This document shows, one piece after another, positions 881 through 39,879 of a stretch of DNA of 43,197 bases (within the stretch, counting starts at the first letter, position 1; each line of letters begins with the position of its first letter). The stretch is from Chitinophagia bacterium (lineage in GTDB: Bacteria; Bacteroidota; Bacteroidia; Chitinophagales; Chitinophagaceae). The translations under genes and the position numbers were made by a program. Location: positions 1 through 43,197 of the forward strand of contig JAJPJP010000272.1 in the NCBI GenBank assembly GCA_021324175.1. The letters are read 5' to 3'. Below the pieces are notes generated by a model. It was not told where the DNA came from. It searched no databases and was given only the letters and a program-made list of their open reading frames with translations.

Positions 881-1876
881 ATGATTGTCAACAGAACCGT
901 CCTCACGCTGGATGAATTTACCATCCGGCAACTCCGCAATTTCCCCCAGGCAACCGGCGAGCTGAGCAACCTGCTTCGCGATATCGGTCTTGCCGCAAAA
1001 TGCGTGAATGACGAAGTGAACAAAGCGGGGTTGGTAGTTATTTTAGGGGAGACAGGAAGCATAAATAACCAGGGAGAAGAGGTAAAAAAATTGGACCTGT
1101 TTGCCAATGATCAATTGATAGGTGTGCTTCGCCACTGTATCAGTTGCGCGGGGATCGCGAGTGAAGAACTGGAAGATTTTCTTTCCTTCGACGATGTGGT
1201 AAGCAGGAATTCCAAATACATTTGTCTTTTTGATCCCCTTAACGGCAGCGCGAATATCGACACCAACATTTCCATCGGCACCATTTTTTCTGTGTATCGC
1301 AGAGTCTCTGAAAAAGGGAAGGCCTGTATTCTCGAAGACTTTTTACAGACCGGTATACACCAGATAGCGGCAGGATATATTATTTACGGATCCTCTACCA
1401 TGCTGGTTTATGCCACACGCCTGGGAGTGAATGGATTTACTCTTGACCCCTCCATCGGCGAGTTCACACTAAGTCATCCAGATATTACCTGTCCGGACTC
1501 CGGAAAAATATATACAGTCAACCATGGTAACTTTTTGCAGTTTAGCGAAGAGGTAAAAAAATATATTGAGTCCTGCCAGCAGCAAAGTTTTAGTGAGCGG
1601 TACGTCGGCAGTATGGTGGCCGACCTGCACCGGAATATAATAAAAGGAGGCATTTTTCTTTATCCGGCGACCATCGATAAACCGGAAGGGAAATTGCGGC
1701 TGCTCTACGAATGCAATCCTTTCGCTTTCATCATGGAAGTTGCCGGAGGCCGCGCGACTAACGGCAGCCAAAGAATTCTCGACATCCGGCCAACTGCACT
1801 GCACGAGCGTACACCCTTTTTTGCCGGTAGTAAAAACATGATGGACACGCTGGAAAGTTTGCTTTTACCGTCATAA
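881..1876 (+). CDS. fbp: Class 1 fructose-1,6-bisphosphatase with an altered metal-binding motif
   Basis: This cytoplasmic enzyme hydrolyses fructose 1,6-bisphosphate to fructose 6-phosphate in gluconeogenesis. The 331-residue product matches the usual family length and is collinear with the E. coli enzyme. It has FPxATGELSxLLRDIGLAAK (residues 21-40), QGEEVxKLD (64-72), GTIFSVYRR (133-141), YGSSTMLVY (169-177) and GKLRLLYECNP (270-280), the last with the metal-binding Glu at 277. The normally invariant DPLDGSSN motif reads DPLNGSAN at 118-125. Position 121, an Asp that binds the catalytic metal in the well-studied mammalian enzyme, is therefore Asn (codon AAC), and the following Ser-Ser is Ser-Ala. 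Reduced or altered activity is possible. The gene stands alone and is followed by a strong terminator. Family identity is certain; full activity is not. Confidence 0.93.
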   Translation: MIVNRTVLTLDEFTIRQLRNFPQATGELSNLLRDIGLAAKCVNDEVNKAGLVVILGETGSINNQGEEVKKLDLFANDQLIGVLRHCISCAGIASEELEDFLSFDDVVSRNSKYICLFDPLNGSANIDTNISIGTIFSVYRRVSEKGKACILEDFLQTGIHQIAAGYIIYGSSTMLVYATRLGVNGFTLDPSIGEFTLSHPDITCPDSGKIYTVNHGNFLQFSEEVKKYIESCQQQSFSERYVGSMVADLHRNIIKGGIFLYPATIDKPEGKLRLLYECNPFAFIMEVAGGRATNGSQRILDIRPTALHERTPFFAGSKNMMDTLESLLLPS

Positions 1877-2564: not shown

Positions 2565-3248
2565 TTATCTTAACAATCCTTTTATCAATCTTAGGAAATC
2601 TCTTAATGCTGGCAACTCCTCGGATAAATCATAACTGCCGTCTGAATCTTCTGCTGTATTCTTTCTCAAAAAAAATTCGCTCGTTCCTGTATGATCGTTA
2701 AATTCTGTTTGGTCTATACAAACAAAAAAGTCAATGTATGGATACTCAAAGTTTGTGTTGCCGTCTTGCAAATACATTTGTCCATCTTCGTCATAGTAAT
2801 AGGCAAATCTATCAAGTAAAGTCGTTTTTAAAATGTCAATCTTGTAACAGAACATTCCGCAAAGCGGAGTTCTCTCATTACAATTTTGTTTGATTGTCCT
2901 TGCTCGTTTATTAAATGCTTCAATGTCTGCACTTGTAGCATTAGTTTTGACTTCAATAATCATTTTACAGTCCTCTGCATTTGCTCCCATATCCTCGTCA
3001 GTAAATGTAGCAATCAAAGCATCATTGTGTAATAGGATTAAATCAATCTGTCCCTCGTCCTCTTGATTGTCAAGATTTACAACACCTCTATCAACTGTAA
3101 TTCTCCCTTTAAAATGCTTTTCAATAATTTCTTTGATAAAATATTCACGGACTTTACCACGAATGCCCATGTGCTGAATTACCTCCGCAACATCGCTTTG
3201 AGCATTCAGCAATTTTTCTGTATAATGGAAGTATTCATCAAATATCAT
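2565..3248 (-). CDS. DUF6602-like protein with a PD-(D/E)xK-like core, last gene of the restriction operon
   Basis: The roughly 227-residue protein resembles the DUF6602 family that accompanies defence genes. Its early part (GxxREYFIKEIIEKHF) leads to a core of the restriction-endonuclease type: an Asp in GQIDLILL, then IIEVKTNA (the E-x-K element) about 25-30 residues later. This suggests, without proving, a nuclease fold. The preferred start is the ATG at 3246-3248, which overlaps the TGA of the upstream hsdMS gene in the ATGA arrangement, a strong sign of translational coupling. A TTG nine bases upstream is also open. No HNH, helicase or membrane region is visible. Its role could be an accessory nuclease or a decayed domain used for binding. 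It belongs to the R-M operon by position. Confidence 0.75.
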   Translation of the reverse strand: MIFDEYFHYTEKLLNAQSDVAEVIQHMGIRGKVREYFIKEIIEKHFKGRITVDRGVVNLDNQEDEGQIDLILLHNDALIATFTDEDMGANAEDCKMIIEVKTNATSADIEAFNKRARTIKQNCNERTPLCGMFCYKIDILKTTLLDRFAYYYDEDGQMYLQDGNTNFEYPYIDFFVCIDQTEFNDHTGTSEFFLRKNTAEDSDGSYDLSEELPALRDFLRLIKGLLR

Positions 3249-6121
3249 TTGCCCCAAACTTTATTGATTACAGATTTAATTTTCTCTTGCATTTTATTTT
3301 TCAAATGCTGTGCACCTTTCATCACTTCTAATTCACTATGTATTTCATTTACAATTTCAAGTTGCTTTCCCATTGGTGGAATTGGAATTGGCAAACTTCT
3401 TATAAAAGAAAGAGAAATAAATTTTTGCGTTGAGCCACTTGATTTTTCAATTACTAATTTTTTGAAAGCATCGCTTTCAAAATAAAATTTAAGAAAGTGG
3501 TTATTGATTGGAGAATCTTTACTGAACTTTATCAAAGCAACATTCTTAATCGCAAATTCTCTATCTTTCTTTACGACAACTGGATTGCCAATTGTTCCAA
3601 TCATTCCCATTAACAAATCACCGTCCTCAACATTTGAACGGAAATTATATTTTTCAAAATCTACTTTTGAGATAAATGTTGCAGTTGAAAAATCTATCTC
3701 TCCATTTATCAAATTCTTTGAAGTAATAAACGGATAACCCTCTGCTACATATTTAGGGCTTTCGTGTGTTCCATCTCTTACATCACACACCTGCTGTAAC
3801 GAAACCAAATCCCAACTTTCATCATAATCAAAATTCGGTTTGTAATTTTCTGTAAGCTGATTGCATCCGTCAACAATTTTTTGGTAGTGTTCAAGTTCAT
3901 CTGCAATTCGCTGCTGAATTTCAATTGAAGGAAGTGGAAATGATAAATTTTCAACATCCGTTTGATTTATGCTTGGGTAAGAACCTTTACCCATTTTTCC
4001 TATCATTTGCTTTTGCAAGTCCTCCAAAAATAAAAGATGAAAAAAGTATTTTCCAATAACTTTGTCAGTTGGAGTTAATACTGCAAATCCAGTTGAAGCA
4101 ATACAATTGTGAGGTATGTTATTTAAGTAGGCAAATGCTTTCAAATTTGGTCTTACAGTTGAAAGCAAAATGTCTCCATTCTTTATTGCTCTTCTTGCTC
4201 TGCTTGGTGCTTCATTTCCTTTTATATAATTATCAAAGTGAATTTCACCTGTGCCGTTTTCTACAGATGAAATATCAATGTATGTAAACTCATTCTCACC
4301 ATACACTTCATTTGGGTTAATAGAAATTGCGTTCACAAGGAAAGCTTCGTTAACATTTACCATTGGAAATTCCGAAAGATTATTTGATATTTCACCACTG
4401 TATTGTTCAAAACTCAAAATGTATTCTCTCTGGCTGTCAATAAAATCAAGCAACTCTTTCGTGAGTTTCTTAATGTTGTTCAAGTTTACACCGTATTCAA
4501 TCGCTGCATCTTTAATGTTTGATTCAAACCATTCTTTTAATTTATCTTCTTCATCAGGTAAAAAGTTTATTCCTGTTTGCTTGTAGAAATCTGCAAGTTG
4601 CTTCTCGTATTTTTCTTTTGTCTTTACCTCATTGTTGGGGTCTTCCAAAAGTTTAGTTTCAAATTCTTCTTTTGCTTTTAATATTTTCTCATACTGTTTT
4701 TTACAGAAAGAGTAAGCAGAAGATGTTGATTTATATATGTCAAGTCGTGCAAATTCATCGCGGTGCAAAAAGCGAAGTTTTTTAGTGAACTGGTTTTCTT
4801 TTTTCGTATTAATTTCTTTTACGAACTGTTCTAAATTACTTTTAGAAAGTTCCATCCATTCCAAAGCATCGGGTAAATCATTTGCTTTTATGTCTGTTCT
4901 ATTTGTGTTTAATGAAAAGCCATCGTTATCTATTTTCACCAATAGAATTTCCTTTCGTTTCCTTGCAATTTCTTTGTCTATAAAAACAATGGAAGTTTTT
5001 ACACCTGAATAGGGTTGAAATATTTGGGCTGGCAAAGAAACTACAGCCCACAAACCTGCTTCGTATATCATCCAGATTCTTAATGAAACATAATCACCTG
5101 ATGATTGAAAAATAATTCCTTCGGGAACAACAAAGCCCGCTTTGCCATCAGGATTCAAATGTTGCAAAATGTAAGAGGCAAAAAGTATTTCGGTTCTGTT
5201 TGCAGGAATTCGAAATTTATCATGTGGGGCAATACCACCTTTCGGTGTCATGAATGGCGGATTAGCTAATATGCAATCGTATTTTTCTTTCCACCTTGTT
5301 TCAAGTGTAAGAGTGTTGTAAGTATGAATTTTAGGATTTCCAAAATGATGCAAATACAAATTCACCATTGCAAGCCGCACCATTAAAGGAGTATTGTCAT
5401 AGCCAACAATGTTTTTTTCAATGCCGCTTCTTTCGGTGCTTGAAAGTTTGTCTCCCCAATTAATTGGTATTCCTTCAATTTTGTAGTTCTTCAAACTCAA
5501 TCGGTAATTTTCATATCCAGTTGTGTTTGTCCGCAAAAGATGTTTGAATGCAGAAACTAAAAATCCACCTGTTCCACATGCAGGATCAAGGATTGTTTCG
5601 TCTTTGCTTGGGTCAACAACTTCAACGATAAAATCAATAATGTTTCTCGGTGTTCTAAATTGTCCGTTGTCGCCTTGCGCTCCCATTGTTTTGAGCAAAT
5701 ACTCAAAGGCATTTCCAAGGTCTTCGCTGTGGTCATATTTAAATCCGTTAATTAAGTCAAGAAATCTTTGTAACACTTTTGCATCACGGAATTTTAAAAA
5801 AGCATTGAGAAAAATATCTCTGAACAACGCAGGAATGTGTTTTGCATTCTGTATTGCTTCAATGCCATTGATAAACTTTGTAACTCTTGCATCAGCACTC
5901 AATTGATTACTCATTAGCTGTTGCCACGAAAACTCTTTGAGTCCACTAGTGAAAAACTTTACATTCAACCCAACTTGGCGAAGTTCTTCGTCTTGGTCGT
6001 CCATGAATTTATAAATAAGTGCAATAGTGATTAGCTCAATTTGGTCTGTTGGCAACGGCAACACACCAACAAGAGTATCTCTTGCATCGTCAATTTTTTT
6101 CTTTATGTCTTTATTAAGCAT
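3245..6121 (-). CDS. hsdM: Type I restriction-modification: fused methyltransferase-specificity subunit (HsdM-HsdS)
   Basis: The 958-residue polypeptide joins two subunits that are normally separate. Residues ~1-470 are an N6-adenine methyltransferase of the HsdM type: an N-terminal helical domain, then the S-adenosylmethionine motif DPACGTGGF (179-187) and the catalytic motif NPPF (287-290). A helical, coiled-coil-rich linker (~470-580) follows. Residues ~590-958 form the specificity part with two target-recognition domains (about 590-770 and 775-945). Each ends in the typical P-L-P-S/I-P-P sequence followed by a helix (LPSIEIQQRIADELEHYQ; IPPMGKQLEIVNEIHSEL). Fused M-S proteins make a methylase that needs no separate HsdS. 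The gene starts 6 bases after hsdR and overlaps the next gene by ATGA. No frameshift or missing catalytic residue is seen. Confidence 0.93.
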   Translation of the reverse strand: MLNKDIKKKIDDARDTLVGVLPLPTDQIELITIALIYKFMDDQDEELRQVGLNVKFFTSGLKEFSWQQLMSNQLSADARVTKFINGIEAIQNAKHIPALFRDIFLNAFLKFRDAKVLQRFLDLINGFKYDHSEDLGNAFEYLLKTMGAQGDNGQFRTPRNIIDFIVEVVDPSKDETILDPACGTGGFLVSAFKHLLRTNTTGYENYRLSLKNYKIEGIPINWGDKLSSTERSGIEKNIVGYDNTPLMVRLAMVNLYLHHFGNPKIHTYNTLTLETRWKEKYDCILANPPFMTPKGGIAPHDKFRIPANRTEILFASYILQHLNPDGKAGFVVPEGIIFQSSGDYVSLRIWMIYEAGLWAVVSLPAQIFQPYSGVKTSIVFIDKEIARKRKEILLVKIDNDGFSLNTNRTDIKANDLPDALEWMELSKSNLEQFVKEINTKKENQFTKKLRFLHRDEFARLDIYKSTSSAYSFCKKQYEKILKAKEEFETKLLEDPNNEVKTKEKYEKQLADFYKQTGINFLPDEEDKLKEWFESNIKDAAIEYGVNLNNIKKLTKELLDFIDSQREYILSFEQYSGEISNNLSEFPMVNVNEAFLVNAISINPNEVYGENEFTYIDISSVENGTGEIHFDNYIKGNEAPSRARRAIKNGDILLSTVRPNLKAFAYLNNIPHNCIASTGFAVLTPTDKVIGKYFFHLLFLEDLQKQMIGKMGKGSYPSINQTDVENLSFPLPSIEIQQRIADELEHYQKIVDGCNQLTENYKPNFDYDESWDLVSLQQVCDVRDGTHESPKYVAEGYPFITSKNLINGEIDFSTATFISKVDFEKYNFRSNVEDGDLLMGMIGTIGNPVVVKKDREFAIKNVALIKFSKDSPINNHFLKFYFESDAFKKLVIEKSSGSTQKFISLSFIRSLPIPIPPMGKQLEIVNEIHSELEVMKGAQHLKNKMQEKIKSVINKVWGK

Positions 6122-6127
6122 TGAAAA

Positions 6128-8656
6128 TTACCTTGGTAAAAATTGGTTAAGTTGAACATTGTCTTTAATGTAATTCAGGATAATCGGAATATTCTCCTTA
6201 CCAATTACTTTTAAGTTGTAAAGCCCAAGCCGTGAATCATTCGGGTCAGGATTTTTTTCATTCATCTGTTTTCTTATGTCGTCAAATATCAGATAACTTT
6301 CAAACAACCGTTTTGCAGAATTGTATTTTGAACCATCTAATTTTTGTTCACTCATAAACTGTTCAAAGTAATCGTCTGCTAAATCAGTCCGTGTTTTTAG
6401 TTTGTATCCATTCACAAATATTTTCATTAGTATTTCTGTGAGTGGTGCTCTACGGTCAATCTCATACGAGTTGAGTAATTTGTCCATGTCCCAATATTCT
6501 GTTGGCTTGTTGAAGATGTATTCTTTTATGTAAGCGCTCAAAGTATTCCAGTCCTCTTGCTCAACTGCTTTTTGAAGTTCTTTATTTTTTTCTACTTCTT
6601 CTTTGGTTGCATCTTCAAAGCGTTTTGAAAATGCTTCCTTGTCAATCTTCATAATTTTTGAAGGTCCAAAATTTTCTTCCTTGATTGTTTTTACTTCGTC
6701 TCCACCTGTGTAATTCAAATCAGGTGTCGGAGTTCCGCCTCCACCACCTTCTTTGCCTTCTGTGTCCTTCGGTAATTCTATTTTTTGTTTGTAGTCGTAT
6801 TCTTCTTCAAAGTAGTCGTGATTTGCAAAGAAGTCAAACATGAAATAATTGTCTTTATCCTCTCTGATTTCTTCGCCTTCGTTGTCATATTCAAAAGTGA
6901 AAAGTCGTGTTCCTCTGCCTTTGATTTGAATGTAATCTGTCGGTGAAAAAATTGGTCGTGCTAAAACAACATTCAAAATATCGGGGCAATCATAACCTGT
7001 CGTCATCATACCTACGGTTACACATACACGGGATTTGCTGCTTTCATAATCTCTCAATTCATTATTGAAGTTGCTGTGCCCATTCAAATCATTATGAGCA
7101 AAGCGAATTGTTCTGTCTTGTGAACCCGTGATGTCGGAAGTGATTTGCAAAGCGAAGAATGAACCTTTGCCGTATTGTTCAGGAAACATTTCGCTCGTTT
7201 CAGCATTCAATAACTTTGTCATTAGTCGGCAGTGATAACGGGAAACACAAAAGAAAATCGTCTTGCCAATTTCTCCGCTTATGGGGTCTCGTTTTGCATT
7301 CTTCAAAAATGCTTGCGCAAACTTCTTATTCGTTTCGTGAGAAACGAATTTTTTCATAAAATCTCTTTTGTAAAAAGTGTCTTCTTCCTCGTCTCCATCT
7401 TCGTTTGCTAATTTATAAGTCCAACCTTGCTTGCTCAACATTTCTGTTGTGATGTCTGTTCGTGCATCTAACAACTTTGGCATACATAAGTAAGGGGGCT
7501 TGTGCGTTACGGCATCTTCTAAACTGAAACGGAAAGTTGGAATTCCATCAGCACAACCAAAAGTTTCATAAGTGCTTAAAAGCAACCTGCGTTCAATATC
7601 TCTTGGGTCTGCCTTTGCAAGATTTACTCCTTTCAAATAATCTTTTGGTGTTGCAGTCAAACCCAACTTTGAACCCATGAAGTAATCAAAGATTACTTTG
7701 TTGTTTCCACCAATAGTTCTATGTGCTTCGTCTGAAATGATGAGTTGAAAATCTGTCGGTGAAAACTCTTTGCGAAAACGATTGTCGTAAGACAAACTTT
7801 GAATTGTAGTAACTACAATTTTCGCGCTCTGCCAATCTTTTTTATTTCTCTTGTAAATGACTGGAAGAACTCCATCATCTTCCAAATACATTTTGAAGTT
7901 CTTGTATGCTTGTAATTCAAGTTCTATTCTGTCAACTAAAAATAAAACTCGGTCTGCGTTGTTTGAACGAATAAACATTTTGATAATGGCAGCACTCAAT
8001 AAAGTTTTTCCTGTGCCTGTCGCCATTTCAAAAAGGAATCTGCGTTTGCCGTCAACAAAATCTTTTTTCAGTTTGTTGGCTGCTTTAACTTGATAGTCCC
8101 GAAGTTCACGGATACCTTTATTTGTTTTTGCTTCCTTGCGTTGACTGTCTGTGTATTTAAGCCACTTTGGATCTTGCGAAACAGCAATGTAGTTTCCATC
8201 AATTACCTGTTCCGCCATTTGTTCAGGGTTTGGTGTCCACTTGATTGCTTCGCCTAATTGTCCAATGCTTAAAAACTTTGAGATAATTGTCGGCTCACCA
8301 TATTCTAAATCCCAGTAGTAGTGAACATTTCCGTTTGAGAGAAAAATGTGTCGGATATGTTTTCCTCTTGCATATTCACGGGCTTGCTCTTTTGCATCAA
8401 GTGGGTCAATGCTTTCTCGTTTTGCTTCAACTAATGCAATTGCTCTACTCTCGTTGTTAAGCAGAACATAATCAATAAAACCGTCAGGCGCGCTATCAAG
8501 GTCGTCACCTAATTTTTTGTTATTGTATTTTGCTTTTTTAGTTCGATGTTCGAGATCAATATTGGCTTTACCTTTCTCGTCGTCAAAAAATCGCCAACCA
8601 GCATCCGTTAGGAGTTCGTTTATTTTGATTCGGGCTTTTGCTTCTTTGTTTGCCGG
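6128..8656 (-). CDS. hsdR: Type I restriction enzyme R subunit (nuclease-translocase)
   Basis: This is the restriction subunit, which translocates and cuts unmethylated DNA. It has an N-terminal nuclease core with Asp in GFIDYVLL and the ExK element in LVEAKRES, at residues ~62 and ~77-79 counted from the chosen start. The SF2 motor follows, with Walker A ATGTGKT (~residues 212-218), the DEAH box (~309-312), a motif VI-like GRGTRLF and a C-terminal helical region that normally docks onto the methylase. Length is ~842 residues. The frame is open to 8707, but I prefer the ATG at 8654-8656 because the residues after it (MPANKEAKARIKINELL) look like the family N terminus while the preceding 17 do not. 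A Gly5 run (~residues 642-646) followed by GTPTP marks a flexible linker. It sits between the wHTH/NDT-like gene and hsdMS. Confidence 0.93.
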   Translation of the reverse strand, partial: PANKEAKARIKINELLTDAGWRFFDDEKGKANIDLEHRTKKAKYNNKKLGDDLDSAPDGFIDYVLLNNESRAIALVEAKRESIDPLDAKEQAREYARGKHIRHIFLSNGNVHYYWDLEYGEPTIISKFLSIGQLGEAIKWTPNPEQMAEQVIDGNYIAVSQDPKWLKYTDSQRKEAKTNKGIRELRDYQVKAANKLKKDFVDGKRRFLFEMATGTGKTLLSAAIIKMFIRSNNADRVLFLVDRIELELQAYKNFKMYLEDDGVLPVIYKRNKKDWQSAKIVVTTIQSLSYDNRFRKEFSPTDFQLIISDEAHRTIGGNNKVIFDYFMGSKLGLTATPKDYLKGVNLAKADPRDIERRLLLSTYETFGCADGIPTFRFSLEDAVTHKPPYLCMPKLLDARTDITTEMLSKQGWTYKLANEDGDEEEDTFYKRDFMKKFVSHETNKKFAQAFLKNAKRDPISGEIGKTIFFCVSRYHCRLMTKLLNAETSEMFPEQYGKGSFFALQITSDITGSQDRTIRFAHNDLNGHSNFNNELRDYESSKSRVCVTVGMMTTGYDCPDILNVVLARPIFSPTDYIQIKGRGTRLFTFEYDNEGEEIREDKDNYFMFDFFANHDYFEEEYDYKQKIELPKDTEGKEGGGGGTPTPDLNYTGGDEVKTIKEENFGPSKIMKIDKEAFSKRFEDATKEEVEKNKELQKAVEQEDWNTLSAYIKEYIFNKPTEYWDMDKLLNSYEIDRRAPLTEILMKIFVNGYKLKTRTDLADDYFEQFMSEQKLDGSKYNSAKRLFESYLIFDDIRKQMNEKNPDPNDSRLGLYNLKVIGKENIPIILNYIKDNVQLNQFLPR

Positions 8657-8722
8657 CATTATTAATATCAAATCTGTTTTGTTGGTTAAGAAATTAGGAG
8701 TTATCAAATGATATATTAAATA

Positions 8723-9793
8723 TCATTTATTTTTTTTATTTTCAAAGTTTACTCTGAAAGGGTGTGGTATAGATTTTTCAGGTTCTTTATTAGCATTTCT
8801 TAAATAATCGCTTATATTTTTTTTAAGTTTATCGCTCCAATTTGGCTCTCTAATTTCATAAATTATTACTCTCAAATGTCGTAAATCGAAAGGGATATCC
8901 TCAAGCTTAGATGAAACAAATATAACTGGCTTTATGGCAGCATGAGCCAACCCTAATTCATAGAAAACATTTGGATTCTTATCTGTTAAATCTGCAAGTA
9001 TTATTTTGGCTTTTGTAATCTGTTCCCATATTTGTTCAACTACACTTCCAGTGCTGAATAATTCGTCTGCTCTAACAGGTTCAAATCCTGCCTCTCTTAT
9101 TGCAGGTACATAAATGTCTTGATAATAAATATCAAACCAAAGTCCAAACGGCATCATGACAAAACAACTATCTAAATATTTTCTTACTCGTGTTTCTTTA
9201 TTTGAAGGATTGTCTGCAGATTGGGTATATTCTATAATTGGCTCATTTTTGTCTTCTATAATTTGGTCTGGATGGTATGCATTAAATGATTTAAGAAATT
9301 CAAGATTTCTCTTAAAAATTTCAGCGAATTTTTCTGCTCTATCTTTTGGGATTTTAAAATTTCGAGTTAATGTATTGAGGAAAAATTCATCTTCAGGGAT
9401 TTTTTTTCCTCCATAAAAAGCTTCAACCTCTTTAAACTCGGGGACATGCCTAAATGCGGCCAACAATGCCTGTTGTCTTTCTGCAGTAGAACTGGGTGCA
9501 ACAATATCTTGACCAAGCTTTTCCAAATTTACTATTGCCGATTGCCCAGTACCATTTACTAATCCATATAAATTTGCGGATTTGAGTAAGTCTAAATATC
9601 TCCAATCATTTGGTAAATTGTAACCCAAAGCTTTTGATAGGTCTGATGCATGCATAGGATTACCTGCGTTTTTTTCATCAATTGCTTTTGGAATTAATAT
9701 TGATTCTTCAAGGATGTTTTTAGGGAATGTCCAAATCTTGCCTTTTGTTTCCAAAGAATCTATGCTTTTTTTGGCTTTTGAACTTTTTGCCAT
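8723..9793 (-). CDS. Winged-helix protein fused to a nucleoside deoxyribosyltransferase-like domain
   Basis: The 356-residue first gene of the restriction operon has two parts. Residues ~25-100 (HASDLSKALGYNLPNDWRYLDLLKSANLYGLV) look like a winged helix. A helical middle follows, and residues ~205-330 form a Rossmann-like domain: a strand with CFVMMPFG (210-217), IYVPAIREAGFEPVRADELF, a Gly-x-x-x-E-x-I segment, then IILADLTDKNPNVFYELGLAHA (264-285) with the Glu that nucleoside 2-deoxyribosyltransferase-like and TIR-like N-glycosidases use. Proteins of this architecture are known near defence genes. Fusions of an NDT-like domain to a winged helix serve as toxic effectors in some retrons, although no reverse transcriptase is nearby here. 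I infer a nucleotide- or NAD-hydrolysing effector or sensor linked to the R-M system. The activity is not proven. It may regulate itself through the inverted repeat just upstream. Confidence 0.72.
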   Translation of the reverse strand: MAKSSKAKKSIDSLETKGKIWTFPKNILEESILIPKAIDEKNAGNPMHASDLSKALGYNLPNDWRYLDLLKSANLYGLVNGTGQSAIVNLEKLGQDIVAPSSTAERQQALLAAFRHVPEFKEVEAFYGGKKIPEDEFFLNTLTRNFKIPKDRAEKFAEIFKRNLEFLKSFNAYHPDQIIEDKNEPIIEYTQSADNPSNKETRVRKYLDSCFVMMPFGLWFDIYYQDIYVPAIREAGFEPVRADELFSTGSVVEQIWEQITKAKIILADLTDKNPNVFYELGLAHAAIKPVIFVSSKLEDIPFDLRHLRVIIYEIREPNWSDKLKKNISDYLRNANKEPEKSIPHPFRVNFENKKNK

Positions 9794-10225: not shown

Positions 10226-11326
10226 ATGAAACCCTCTTCCAATTATCCCGAATTGCTCGGGACTGATCATATTGAGTTTTATGTAGGCAATGCCAGGCAG
10301 GCGGCGCATTATTACCAGGCGGCTTTTGGTTTCCAGCCGCTGGCTTATGCCGGCCCGGAGACTGGTGTGAAGGGTTCTGTAAGCTATGCGCTCCGCCAGG
10401 GAAAAATAATATTTGTTTTCACTACTGCACTCAGGACCTCAAGCCCTATTGCTGATCATGTTTTCCTGCATGGTGATGGCGTACGCGTCCTCGCGCTTTT
10501 AGTGGACGACGCAAAAAAGGCCTGGCAACAAACCACCCGCAACGGCGCAAAAAATTATATCGAGCCTTCCCTGCTGCAGGACGATTCCGGCAGTGCCATG
10601 CTCAGCGGTATTCATCTTTATGGGGAAACGGTGCATGTATTCGTTGAACGTAAAAATTATCATGGCGTTTTTCTTCCCGGCTTTGTGCCCTGGAAACCGG
10701 TATACCGCCCCGGTGATGCGGGACTCCTCGTCGTGGACCATTGCGTGGGCAATGTCGGCTGGAACCGCATGAACCACTGGGTGCAGTTCTATGAATCCGT
10801 GATGGGATTTACCAATATCCTTTCTTTTGATGACATTGACATCTCTACCGAATATTCCGCACTGATGAGCAAGGTGATGGCTAACGGTAACGGGTATATA
10901 AAATTCCCGATCAACGAACCTGCCGAAGGAAAAAAGAAATCGCAGGTGGAAGAATTCCTGGAATTCTATTGCGGGGAAGGTGTCCAGCATATTGCGATGG
11001 CAACAAAAGATATCATAGAGACCGTGTCCACACTCCAGAAACAAGGCGTGGAATTTTTAAAAGTGCCGGACACCTATTATGCTGAATTGCAACAGCGAAT
11101 CGGCGTAATCGACGAAGACATGAGCGCGCTGAAGGAATTGGGTATTCTCATCGACCGCGATGACGAAGGATATCTCCTGCAAATCTTTACCAAACCGGTG
11201 GAAGACCGGCCGACACTTTTTTTTGAGATCATCCAGCGCAAGGGTGCAAAAAGTTTTGGCAAGGGAAATTTTAAAGCGCTGTTTGAAGCGATAGAAAAAG
11301 AGCAGGCGCTTCGTGGAAACCTATAA
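10226..11326 (+). CDS. hppD: 4-hydroxyphenylpyruvate dioxygenase
   Basis: This cytoplasmic non-heme iron enzyme turns 4-hydroxyphenylpyruvate into homogentisate, the second step of tyrosine breakdown. Two glyoxalase-fold (VOC) halves are visible in the 366-residue product, starting at DHIEFYVGNA (14-23) and VDHCVGNV (170-177). The iron ligands are the two His at 172 and 255 (GVQHIAM) and the Glu at 334 (LFFEIIQRKG), all present. C-terminal residues GKGNFKALFEAIEKEQ match the helix that closes the active site. The length is standard for bacteria. It is the first gene of a five-gene run and ends 12 bases before the homogentisate dioxygenase start. Confidence 0.97.
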   Translation: MKPSSNYPELLGTDHIEFYVGNARQAAHYYQAAFGFQPLAYAGPETGVKGSVSYALRQGKIIFVFTTALRTSSPIADHVFLHGDGVRVLALLVDDAKKAWQQTTRNGAKNYIEPSLLQDDSGSAMLSGIHLYGETVHVFVERKNYHGVFLPGFVPWKPVYRPGDAGLLVVDHCVGNVGWNRMNHWVQFYESVMGFTNILSFDDIDISTEYSALMSKVMANGNGYIKFPINEPAEGKKKSQVEEFLEFYCGEGVQHIAMATKDIIETVSTLQKQGVEFLKVPDTYYAELQQRIGVIDEDMSALKELGILIDRDDEGYLLQIFTKPVEDRPTLFFEIIQRKGAKSFGKGNFKALFEAIEKEQALRGNL

Positions 11327-37790: not shown

Positions 37791-38330
37791 GTGTCACGAA
37801 TAGAGAGCGATCTCAAATTAGTTCTTTGAGTTTGTTATTTAATGCTGTGTAGACGATGATGAGAGACCCATCGGTAGCGGCTTACAGGAGCAGCTATCAA
37901 ACCACCTTTAGCTGCTGCAATTAAGAGTTGTGGTAGTGAGCATAAAAGGAAAAGGCATCGATAAAGATGTCAGGTAAGTGTTAGTGAAGGCGAACAATGT
38001 GTGAACTGTCAACAGAGGCGTCGAAAGGATTAAACGATGTCAAAAACCAAGGTGCATTATCGATTTTGGGATAAGCAGTAAGGAAACCTGTCTCAGGTTG
38101 TGATACCTGGGTTTACTTACTAAATATAAATGATCAAATCATCGCGAACAAACAAATTATACAATTCGCAAGTTTTTATGGGCTTCAAAGTACGAACTGC
38201 TGAAAAGAAATGACATACAATTTAGGTAGAATATAAACATTGGTGCATTTCTTAGGCCAAGCTAACACTAAGTGAAAAGTTGGGCTCTTTACAAGATTAC
38301 CATTTGATTTTAGGAATGCGACCTTTTTAG
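37791..38330 (+). ncRNA. Structured non-coding stretch, possible 5' remnant of a group II intron
   Basis: No coding frame exists in ~540 bases between susD and the next gene. The sequence begins GTGTC right after the susD stop, near the GUGYG-type start of group II introns, and shows nested stems: 37812-37830 (CTCAAA/TTTGAG), 37854-37873 (CGATG/CATCG), 37889-37916 (AGCAGCTA/TAGCTGCT) and 38078-38120 (GTAAGGAAACC with GGTTTACTTAC, one mismatch, enclosing CAGGT/ACCTG). Runs such as GTGTGAACTG and AGAGGCGTCGAAAGGATT resemble the domain I region upstream of intron-encoded reverse transcriptases. No reverse transcriptase and no domain V were found, so it would be an inactive fragment. The identity is from pattern memory. 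Confidence 0.4.
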
Positions 38331-38352: not shown

Positions 38353-39879
38353 ATGAATATTTTAGTGTTGTTATTTGTATGTTTTTCTTTTTGGAATAAC
38401 AATAGCACAAGTAGTTTCTCTCAATATTTGAGCTCGCAAGGAAAAGAATTACATTATCATGGAACTATATTGGATTATCAAAATGGTGACAGTTTACGCA
38501 TTCAATATGACGATGAAGGAATTAGAAGTGGACTTTCCGAACACAGTCTAATAACACTATGGGTAGATCCTGATTCAATGGGAAAATTTAAATTCGATCT
38601 TCCTTCTTATGGGCATCTAAGTAGGATGGTTATGTTATTTAAAAGGCATATTCACGGGGTAGGACTAATTTATGATGGTATAGTCGAGCCTGGAGACGAT
38701 ATCAATATTAATATTACAATGAATGAGCAATATGACGTATCAGCGTTGTATAGCGGACCAGGATCTGCAAAATATCAATGCCAGGGTCAGATACCTTCTA
38801 TCTGGACATACTCAGCCCAGGTTCTGCCATACCGGCGAATATATTCAAGCCGCAATTGGCTGGATTCTTTTTACAATAGAGTTAATAAGTTCGAATTAGA
38901 TAATCTCGCGATTTTGAACAATTTTAAGTCAAAGATATCTCCAATCGTATATAAGTTATTGTATGAAGAAGTGAAGGCCAATTTTAGAAACCTTTTTGTT
39001 TCCGACATTGAAGATCTTCTTTGTTCGGATACGGTGGGGATTCAGGGATCTGCGCTTACCCCTGGGTTCAGAAAGGAATTAATTGCTAACTATAAAAATA
39101 AATTTATGTTAGGGGTCGATACATCAAATTCATTGATTTTGCAAAGGTCATGGGCTTGGAGATCGTATGTAATAAATAAAATACAAACCGACTACTATGT
39201 TAAATTCGGGAGGAAACCGACTTTAAAGAAGGTATTTGAAAAAATAGCTCAGGAGTACAAGGGAGTATTATTTGATAGATTAATTGGGCAATTGATGTTT
39301 TATCCATTTAGTATTTCGTGGGGACTTACTTCTAGTTCTGAACAGTTCCAATATTGTATGGAGGAAGGCTTTAAATTGACTAAGTCCCCTTATATAAAAA
39401 AAGCATTTCTTGCCAAGGCAGTATTGGCAAAAGGAAAAGAGGCATATGATTTTTCTTATATCGATACTTCAGGAAATAATGTAGAGCTTTCTTCCTTCAA
39501 AGGAAAAGTCGTTATGGTTGATTGCTGGTTTACTGGCTGCACCGGCTGCGCAATGTTTTATGAACGGTTTAAAGACAGTTTAGCCCCCGCTTTTAAGGGT
39601 AATAAAGACTTTAAGGTGATTTCCATCAATCTTGATGAAAATAAAAAAACCTGGATCAATAGTCTATATAAGGACATATACACTAATCCGAGCGATATTA
39701 ATCTATTTGCGAATGCTAAAGGTTTTAAAACCGGGTTGCTTGATTACTACAAGATCGATGGAGCTCCATTTACATTGTTAATAGATAAAAATGGAAAGAT
39801 CTTGTTGTCAGGTCTGGGTGGGTTTCCCGACACAAATACAGACGTGAAAAAAATAATTCAATCCGCACTACAACAATGA
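38353..39879 (+). CDS. TlpA-like thioredoxin-domain protein (unit 2)
   Basis: The 508-residue protein has a hydrophobic N terminus (LVLLFVCFSFW, signal peptide of moderate quality), a large N-terminal region of unknown type (~30-360) and a C-terminal thioredoxin-like domain (~365-505). The redox motif is CWFTGCTGCAMF with Cys396 and Cys399 (CTGC instead of CGPC), followed by VISINLDEN and the cis-Pro segment DGAPFTLLIDKNGKIL. It is probably periplasmic or membrane-anchored and reduces disulfides on substrate or on partners. The gene follows the intron-like remnant, so it may be read by its own promoter. Confidence 0.82.
   Translation: MNILVLLFVCFSFWNNNSTSSFSQYLSSQGKELHYHGTILDYQNGDSLRIQYDDEGIRSGLSEHSLITLWVDPDSMGKFKFDLPSYGHLSRMVMLFKRHIHGVGLIYDGIVEPGDDININITMNEQYDVSALYSGPGSAKYQCQGQIPSIWTYSAQVLPYRRIYSSRNWLDSFYNRVNKFELDNLAILNNFKSKISPIVYKLLYEEVKANFRNLFVSDIEDLLCSDTVGIQGSALTPGFRKELIANYKNKFMLGVDTSNSLILQRSWAWRSYVINKIQTDYYVKFGRKPTLKKVFEKIAQEYKGVLFDRLIGQLMFYPFSISWGLTSSSEQFQYCMEEGFKLTKSPYIKKAFLAKAVLAKGKEAYDFSYIDTSGNNVELSSFKGKVVMVDCWFTGCTGCAMFYERFKDSLAPAFKGNKDFKVISINLDENKKTWINSLYKDIYTNPSDINLFANAKGFKTGLLDYYKIDGAPFTLLIDKNGKILLSGLGGFPDTNTDVKKIIQSALQQ

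Follow-up and report, generated by a model that had tools for sequence, protein, structure and literature searches.

The idea that restriction-modification (R-M) systems are coupled to suicide effectors, as in the case of PrrC, has been in print since 2012-2013. The PrrC precedent for such coupling was described in one of these lines of work (PMC3506569), at least 16 clades of HEPN proteins have been linked to R-M (PMC3710099), and a 2025 review repeats R-M/suicide coupling as a hypothesis (PMC12707154). Back-up effectors are likewise described around BREX (PMC12839542), and DrHyd proteins form a superfamily related to TIR whose members act as NADases or cyclases in conflict systems (PMC9503650, PMC7159879). 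A fused M-S subunit has been made from EcoKI (PMC3510504). A literature search for NucC partnered with Type I R-M returned, by title, only a general review and methylome work; no title dealing with interchangeable effectors of R-M was found, and the name DUF6602 was not found in the literature searched. The locus described here adds a NucC-like partner and a wide range of genes occupying the same place behind the modification subunit.

The analyzed DNA is a contig of 43,197 nucleotides from a Chitinophagia bacterium (hereafter the window). Four genes on the minus strand, at positions 2565-9793, follow one another in the order g1, HsdR, fused HsdM-S and DUF6602 (ORF coordinates), and all four ORFs were recovered with the positions and tight spacing given in the original prediction. 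The first gene, g1 (8723-9793), encodes a 356-aa protein with an N-terminal winged-helix-like part and a C-terminal TIR/DrHyd/deoxyribosyltransferase-like domain (8783-9181, minus strand). It is separated by 66 bp from the ATG of the gene encoding the HsdR-like restriction/translocase subunit (6128-8656); this ORF (8707-6128) extends upstream as far as a TTG at 8707, and its homologues begin at or near the ATG at 8656. After a gap of 6 bp comes the gene for a fused HsdM-HsdS protein of 958 aa (3245-6121), with an N6-adenine methylase and two target-recognition stretches. Its stop codon overlaps the ATG at 3248 of the last gene (2565-3248) within the sequence ATGA (3245-3248, minus strand), and this gene encodes a 227-aa DUF6602 protein, a NucC-like putative PD-(D/E)xK nuclease. 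DUF6602 is followed after 177 bp, on this strand, by a gene for a DUF3892 protein of 104 aa (2073-2387).

Measured in 1-kb windows, the operon has a G+C content of 0.31-0.38, compared with 0.39-0.44 on its left and 0.48-0.54 on its right. The predicted difference in composition holds against both flanks, but similarly AT-rich stretches occur elsewhere in the window, at ~29-31 kb and 34-41 kb, so composition alone is weak evidence. A promoter/terminator scan did no better than shuffles (27 versus 28.3 and 7 versus 5.2, respectively), a clean empty site was not found, and the order of the flanking genes varies among genus-mates. Elsewhere in the window, a group II intron D1-D4 match (102.9 bits) at 37858-37975 (plus strand) is followed by an ORF of 508 aa (38353-39879), possibly the reverse transcriptase of this intron. 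Genes encoding FBPase and HPPD occur twice in the bin, on contig C5 (window positions 881-1876 and 10226-11326) and on contig C67 of the window genome (G000), with about 74% identity, which would fit either a duplication or a bin in which two related organisms are mixed.

The sequence hallmarks of Type I R-M could be distinguished in the two central genes, i.e. an HsdR nuclease ExK with an SF2 motor, HsdM N6-methylase motifs and an HsdS with two TRDs. HsdR contains the Pfam domains ResIII, SWI2/SNF2 and HSDR_N, and its motifs – D79 and E94-x-K96 (ORF numbering) of the nuclease, GTGKT and DEAH – are intact. The fused protein matches N6_Mtase (PF02384, 159.5 bits) and, in two stretches, Methylase_S (PF01420, 91.8 bits), and retains the DPACGTG and NPPF motifs. 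These domains and motifs bear out the predicted Type I R-M system with a fused M-S subunit, and from its sequence we classify R-MS as a Type I-like restriction-modification cassette. No match to the window HsdR was found in three genus-mates. In a Verrucomicrobiota/Planctomycetota branch of HsdR (L065, L066, L069, L071 and L072), MS or its end lies upstream of R and not downstream.

The DUF6602 protein scores 54.5 bits with PF20247 (Pfam cut-off 27), which makes the product predicted as “DUF6602-like” a full member of the family. PADLOC models matched by it include PD-DExK (1.1e-15) and NucC (1.2e-7), and a one-sequence search retrieved Serratia NucC (1.5e-6). A profile of six DUF6602 relatives, compared with the PDB, matched five NucC sequences (1.6e-12, 6.3e-6, 0.0014, 0.014 and 0.026), with all non-NucC matches at 0.46 or worse. 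Residues D69, E99 and K101 are invariant in all six relatives, and the D and ExK of the PD-(D/E)xK core align to NucC. The aligned Asp is D in PDB entry 6p7o and N in 6p7p and 6q1h; this N we take to be an inactivating change of NucC. In a structural model built from three sequences the 14 best Foldseek hits were NucC chains (E 2.4e-3 to 2.3e-2), and at a pLDDT of 48 these hits merely back up the profile search. The PD-(D/E)xK-like nature foreseen for this protein was thus supported by the profile match and the aligned residues and, more weakly, by the model, and DUF6602 is classified as a NucC relative with catalytic residues in place. The alignment is confined to its N-terminal part (profile positions 6-127 of 227) and leaves the C-terminal part unaligned, so a nucleotide pocket of the NucC kind would be putative here.

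The order R-MS-DUF6602 was found in five lineages, the window included. The other four are represented by G524 (L204), G224 (L020), the near-copies G406 (L022) and G348 (L141, a Chlorobiaceae record), and a locus of Verrucomicrobiales (L064). The distance between MS and DUF6602, by ORF ends, ranges from -13 to +3 in the window, L204, L020, L022 and L064. By gene order and spacing, R, MS and DUF6602 are taken to be a recurring three-gene unit whose genes overlap or nearly touch. The closest replicate, L204, is 74% identical to the window in R, 77% in MS residues 1-440, 32% in the remainder of MS and 65% in DUF6602, which suggests that the nuclease was kept and the specificity exchanged.

Protein searches with DUF6602 against 296 genomes of the phylum (E to 1e-10) detected three besides the window (G224, G348 and G406), each with R and MS in front of it. 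In a sample of 395 genomes the Pfam model of DUF6602 was matched 42 times, in 40 genomes; five of these matches lie behind this R-MS (G000, G224, G348, G406 and G524) and 37 do not lie beside it. Of the 42, three have other M/S/R-like genes nearby on their own strand (L185, L190 and L208), two have weaker S- or M-like neighbours (L172 and L177) and one a CD-NTase-like neighbour (L180; 26%, 2e-11). For these neighbourhoods, up to five ORFs per side were compared with the window proteins and with a small set of queries (R, S, CD-NTase and TrlF), a comparison that may overlook other types of R-M. The unit seems to be rare, since G524 gave the only DUF6602 match at 1e-20 among 199 genomes of its genus. 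No DUF6602 relative was found among viral contigs.

The sole DUF6602 match in 72,556 plasmid records is located on a Shewanella plasmid, in the order S-R-DUF6602-CD-NTase (L018). On this plasmid (NZ_AP026733.1; L018, L301) S-R, DUF6602 and CD-NTase adjoin tniQ, csy2 and csy3 and resemble the cargo carried by a CRISPR-associated Tn7-like element. NucC possesses a cyclic tri-adenylate pocket and a trimer-hexamer switch. The CD-NTase after DUF6602 in L018 fits nucleotide activation and, together with the CD-NTase-like neighbour in L180 and the NucC kinship itself, would agree with DUF6602 being NucC proper, activated by cyclic tri-adenylate made elsewhere in the cell and placed behind MS as a defence-island addition. 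However, only the N-terminal part of DUF6602 aligns to NucC, and no SMODS-family CD-NTase was matched in any of four genomes (G000, which is 88% complete, G524, G224 and G348) by a search that gave a match in three of 14 control genomes, so the usual NucC trigger was not found in these four. Nor was a CD-NTase family recognized in any of the seven proteins scanned, four from the operon and three from its flanks. We consider this explanation very doubtful.

In a tree of 43 DUF6602 proteins, those of the window, L204, L020, L064, L141 and L018 share one fork (support 100/100), apart from the 37 others. This type I-linked clade sits on a long branch; the Shewanella protein, which is encoded beside a conventional type I S-R pair, falls within it as a long row of unsure placement. 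The R-MS label requires two changes on the best tree, with one also possible, and a comparison of the R-MS group with other R-M-linked rows was not striking (94 of 500 label shuffles as low). Four of the five clade lineages besides the window (L204, L020, Chlorobiaceae and L018) were found by DUF6602 queries and L064 through R alone, so the link of DUF6602 to R-M arises partly by selection.

The neighbourhood of the cassette was surveyed in 103 loci, 102 of them with R (L073 has none by the threshold); 78 of the 102 came from the best 80 of 578 confirmed relatives, which favours close relatives of the window R. Dropped before counting were L141 and L061 (same contig as G348, near-copy of L022), L050 (a contig without R) and L019 (a copy of L017). 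MS lies within 1.5 kb downstream of R in 79 of these 102 loci, and 65 of the 79 extend at least 500 bp beyond MS and form the testable set. In 50 of the 65, a sample drawn mostly from the best 80 of 578, the MS stop is followed within 100 bp by the start of an ORF of at least 90 aa on the same strand, and in 15 there is no such ORF. In 33 of the 50 cases the ORF starts within 10 bp of the stop.

Twenty-two of these 50 genes belong to defence-type families, a call made over the Pfam cut-off or at a PADLOC E of at most 1e-6, with the label “defence-type” based on library descriptions and general background on these families. They comprise five DUF6602, two AAA_21 and one each of Ppl, SIR2_2, DUF4917, DUF3644, PDC-S21/SIR2, PD-T4-7, SocA-Panacea, AIPR, AAA_5, YhcG nuclease, DarT, HerA DUF87, AAA_13 (the RloC/PrrC-type family), RVT and TIR effector. 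A further six gave weak matches, all below the Pfam cut-off (HamA in one, HEPN in five), one is a DUF1638 gene, not counted as defence, 11 have no family, eight were unscanned (L025, L056, L076, L086, L106, L119, L128 and L299) and two are pieces of MS/S (L100 and L120). The unscanned genes of L056 and L299 are 83% and 74% identical to those of L057 and L297, respectively, both without family. Two loci that fall outside the 65 by the identity threshold also have a gene behind MS, an OLD/TOPRIM ATPase in L103 and a weak HEPN match in L058. We propose that the place behind MS is a cargo slot often carrying other defence-type genes, a putative excess judged from the counts in these 65 loci. Two conjugative IncF-type plasmids of E. 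coli (L017 and L019) have R-MS with a Ppl/TrlF gene behind MS (matched by PADLOC in L017), near finO, and are a possible laboratory model for the slot.

Closely related cassettes may differ in their cargo. L063 and L064 share 88% identity in R and 91% in the N-terminal part of MS, and their slots hold a PD-T4-7-like gene (PADLOC 7.3e-47) and DUF6602, respectively. The DUF6602 of L064 is in turn 64% identical to that of L141, with Rs that are 50% identical. Such comparisons suggest that type I-linked DUF6602s have moved between R-MS cassettes. In family f37, that of the Chlorobiaceae record, seven loci with Rs 76-92% identical have differing genes behind MS – DUF6602 (L022), DUF3644 with an REase-like domain (L055), weak HEPN matches (L058 and L060), and genes without family or unscanned (L056, L057 and L059). 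Mapped onto a quick tree of 101 HsdR proteins, the DUF6602 label takes four changes, all four forced by well-supported branches. Shuffled labels averaged 4.9 and came out as low in 30 of 500 cases, which points to a scattered label with only weak clustering.

Genes were also found at other positions of the cassette. One lies between R and MS in 20 of the 79 sampled loci. Among ten of these that were scanned, four matched the IVP four-helix domain (one over the cut-off), and the others matched RhuM, Fic, nucleotidyltransferase, DUF3800 and, marginally, a transposase, with one lacking any match. The proteins matching the 23S rRNA-intervening-sequence four-helix domain are encoded in L053, L054, L099 and L119, two of them with a zinc ribbon. 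Upstream of R, a same-strand gene within 150 bp was present in 33 of the 87 sampled R loci with 1 kb upstream. Three of ten such genes scanned are ordinary host-like ones (NadA, fasciclin and glycosyltransferase) and a few are defence- or mobile-like (YhcG, RhuM), which makes the upstream place less specific than the slot. In two genomes of the family to which the window belongs, an AbiEii/AbiEi pair lies directly upstream of HsdR (L298:3172-4962 and L300:10356-12215); that of L298 was identified by PADLOC, and the L300 proteins are 75% and 69% identical to it.

The upstream gene of the window, g1, had been predicted to encode a wHTH-NDT-like protein. Its product scores 17.1 bits with PF05014 (cut-off 28.8) and has no NCBIfam hit, and it was therefore rejected as a true nucleoside deoxyribosyltransferase. 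PADLOC matched it to the CBASS “TIR” effectors (1.6e-8). An AlphaFold model (pLDDT blocks mostly 83-96 in both parts, pTM 0.45) gave nucleoside deoxyribosyltransferase, SPARTA TIR-APAZ and DNPH1 as best Foldseek hits. The fold type foreseen is thus present in the model and, by our reading of sequence and model, the N-terminal part (about residues 27-110) is probably winged-helix-like, but the family score stays below its cut-off. The C-terminal domain (about residues 205-337), which we label DrHyd, carries E279 in NPNVFYELG, invariant in 16 of 16 rows.

No g1 homologue was found within 3 kb upstream of R in any of the 86 other sampled R loci with at least 1 kb upstream. In L204 it is missing from this position, and a TIR-type gene lies ~1.35 kb past DUF6602. 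The predicted four-gene system was rejected on these grounds; of the two genes flanking the cassette, DUF6602 recurs behind MS in four other lineages but g1 does not recur upstream. Since none of the 86 loci carries it upstream of R, g1 is regarded as a locus-specific addition and not as part of the R-MS-DUF6602 unit.

A search of 198 genomes of the order gave matches in seven others, in the C-terminal domain only. The neighbours in four of the seven (L026, L027, L030 and L031) were scanned and include LRR-Roc-TIR, patatin, CHAT and nSTAND proteins, and the L026 relative is itself joined to TPR-S/TRAF-binding domains. The L027 relative lies ~1.1 kb from an ordinary HsdR, a hint of an R-M link for the g1-type domain, and in L052 a gene with a g1-type C-terminal domain (27% identical) is found directly behind MS. 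As a single query g1 found no relative among viral contigs. Its C-terminal domain is common there (157 confirmed, best 80 taken), and among these best 80 of 157 the match extends across the greater part of g1 in two, L219 and L221, with the same two-part architecture. The R and MS of the window and the R and S of L018 and L027 had no match in the same 80 contigs, bar a weak MS match in L217. In that contig, a 926-aa protein that is weakly methylase-like (E 4e-4) is encoded on the other strand, back to back with a g1 relative (L217:122-4113), which is the closest in the C-terminal domain after L216 and L218 (50%) among the best 80 of 157.

The companions of R-MS might be independent defence-island passengers that share a promoter with it and have no functional tie to it. 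This describes g1 best, given the architecture of L219 and L221, the 80 viral contigs with next to no R-M match and the absence of a link to this R elsewhere, and the slot contents do vary freely. For DUF6602, however, the same order in four further lineages, with overlapping or touching starts, and a clade common to type I loci argue against it, and as an account of the companions in general we find it quite improbable. The g1 protein itself may be a separate NAD- or nucleotide-cleaving defence gene product, joined to this one locus.

Our preferred reading, to which we give about an even chance, is a Type I-like R-M cassette that carries DUF6602 as a dedicated back-up nuclease. MS would methylate self DNA and R would cut unmodified phage DNA, and the DUF6602 nuclease would be held latent by, or near, the R-MS complex. 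Its trigger would be an R-MS complex that has engaged in vain or has been blocked by an anti-restriction protein of the phage. The nuclease would then degrade DNA without selectivity and so end both the infection and the cell, by the logic of PrrC/EcoprrI. The layered defence of the original prediction is thus partly supported by the recurrence of R-MS with DUF6602 but does not extend to g1 or a four-gene system; companions acting when restriction fails are plausible by analogy.

It is equally possible that DUF6602 helps restriction instead of killing. In one such scheme the restriction complex would recruit it during translocation as an extra nuclease, and it would widen the degradation of unmodified phage DNA with no cell killing. 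The overlap of its start with MS, its co-inheritance with R-MS and its DNase-type fold would suit this role. Yet R already has its own nuclease motif, and elsewhere the slot holds HEPN RNases (weak matches), SIR2, the DarT ADP-ribosyltransferase and ATPases, which are unsuited to it; we regard this particular scheme as rather unlikely. A broader form of the back-up reading, which we put forward only tentatively, is that DUF6602 represents a NucC-fold branch freed of cyclic-nucleotide control and switched by the Type I complex, with the R-MS cassette and its M-S fusion acting as a general chassis, able to sense failed restriction and to drive any effector present in the slot. If the slot is functional, one restriction chassis would serve over a dozen exchangeable companions, the 2012-2013 immunity-suicide proposal would become directly testable, and the link to R-MS would provide a lead to the function of DUF6602.

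Among known systems, EcoprrI-PrrC likewise has an effector-type gene within the transcription unit of a Type I R-M system, with release proposed upon restriction failure. PrrC is, however, an ABC-HEPN tRNA (anticodon) nuclease, whereas here a NucC-like protein stands behind a fused MS, and its latency under R-M control is a supposition. An effector that recurs within the R-M operon, a feature of PrrC-like guards, was found in the case of DUF6602 and not of g1. With NucC, the accessory DNase of CBASS and type III CRISPR, DUF6602 shares the PD-(D/E)xK nuclease and the aligned catalytic D..ExK, but only over its N-terminal part, and no CD-NTase was found in the locus, or in the genome by the SMODS search. 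The R subunit resembles the EcoAI/EcoEI type, as it matches the EcoAI/FtnUII R model of NCBIfam at 187 bits, below the cut-off of 550. The M-S fusion from EcoKI was made, whereas the fused MS of this locus is the native state, with cargo directly behind it. Finally, g1 shares its fold and the conserved NPNVFYELG glutamate with DrHyd/TIR effectors (SPARTA TIR-APAZ, CBASS TIR and the DNPH1/NDT fold), but differs from them in its winged-helix-like N-terminus and in an operon in which no CBASS or Argonaute gene was recognized.
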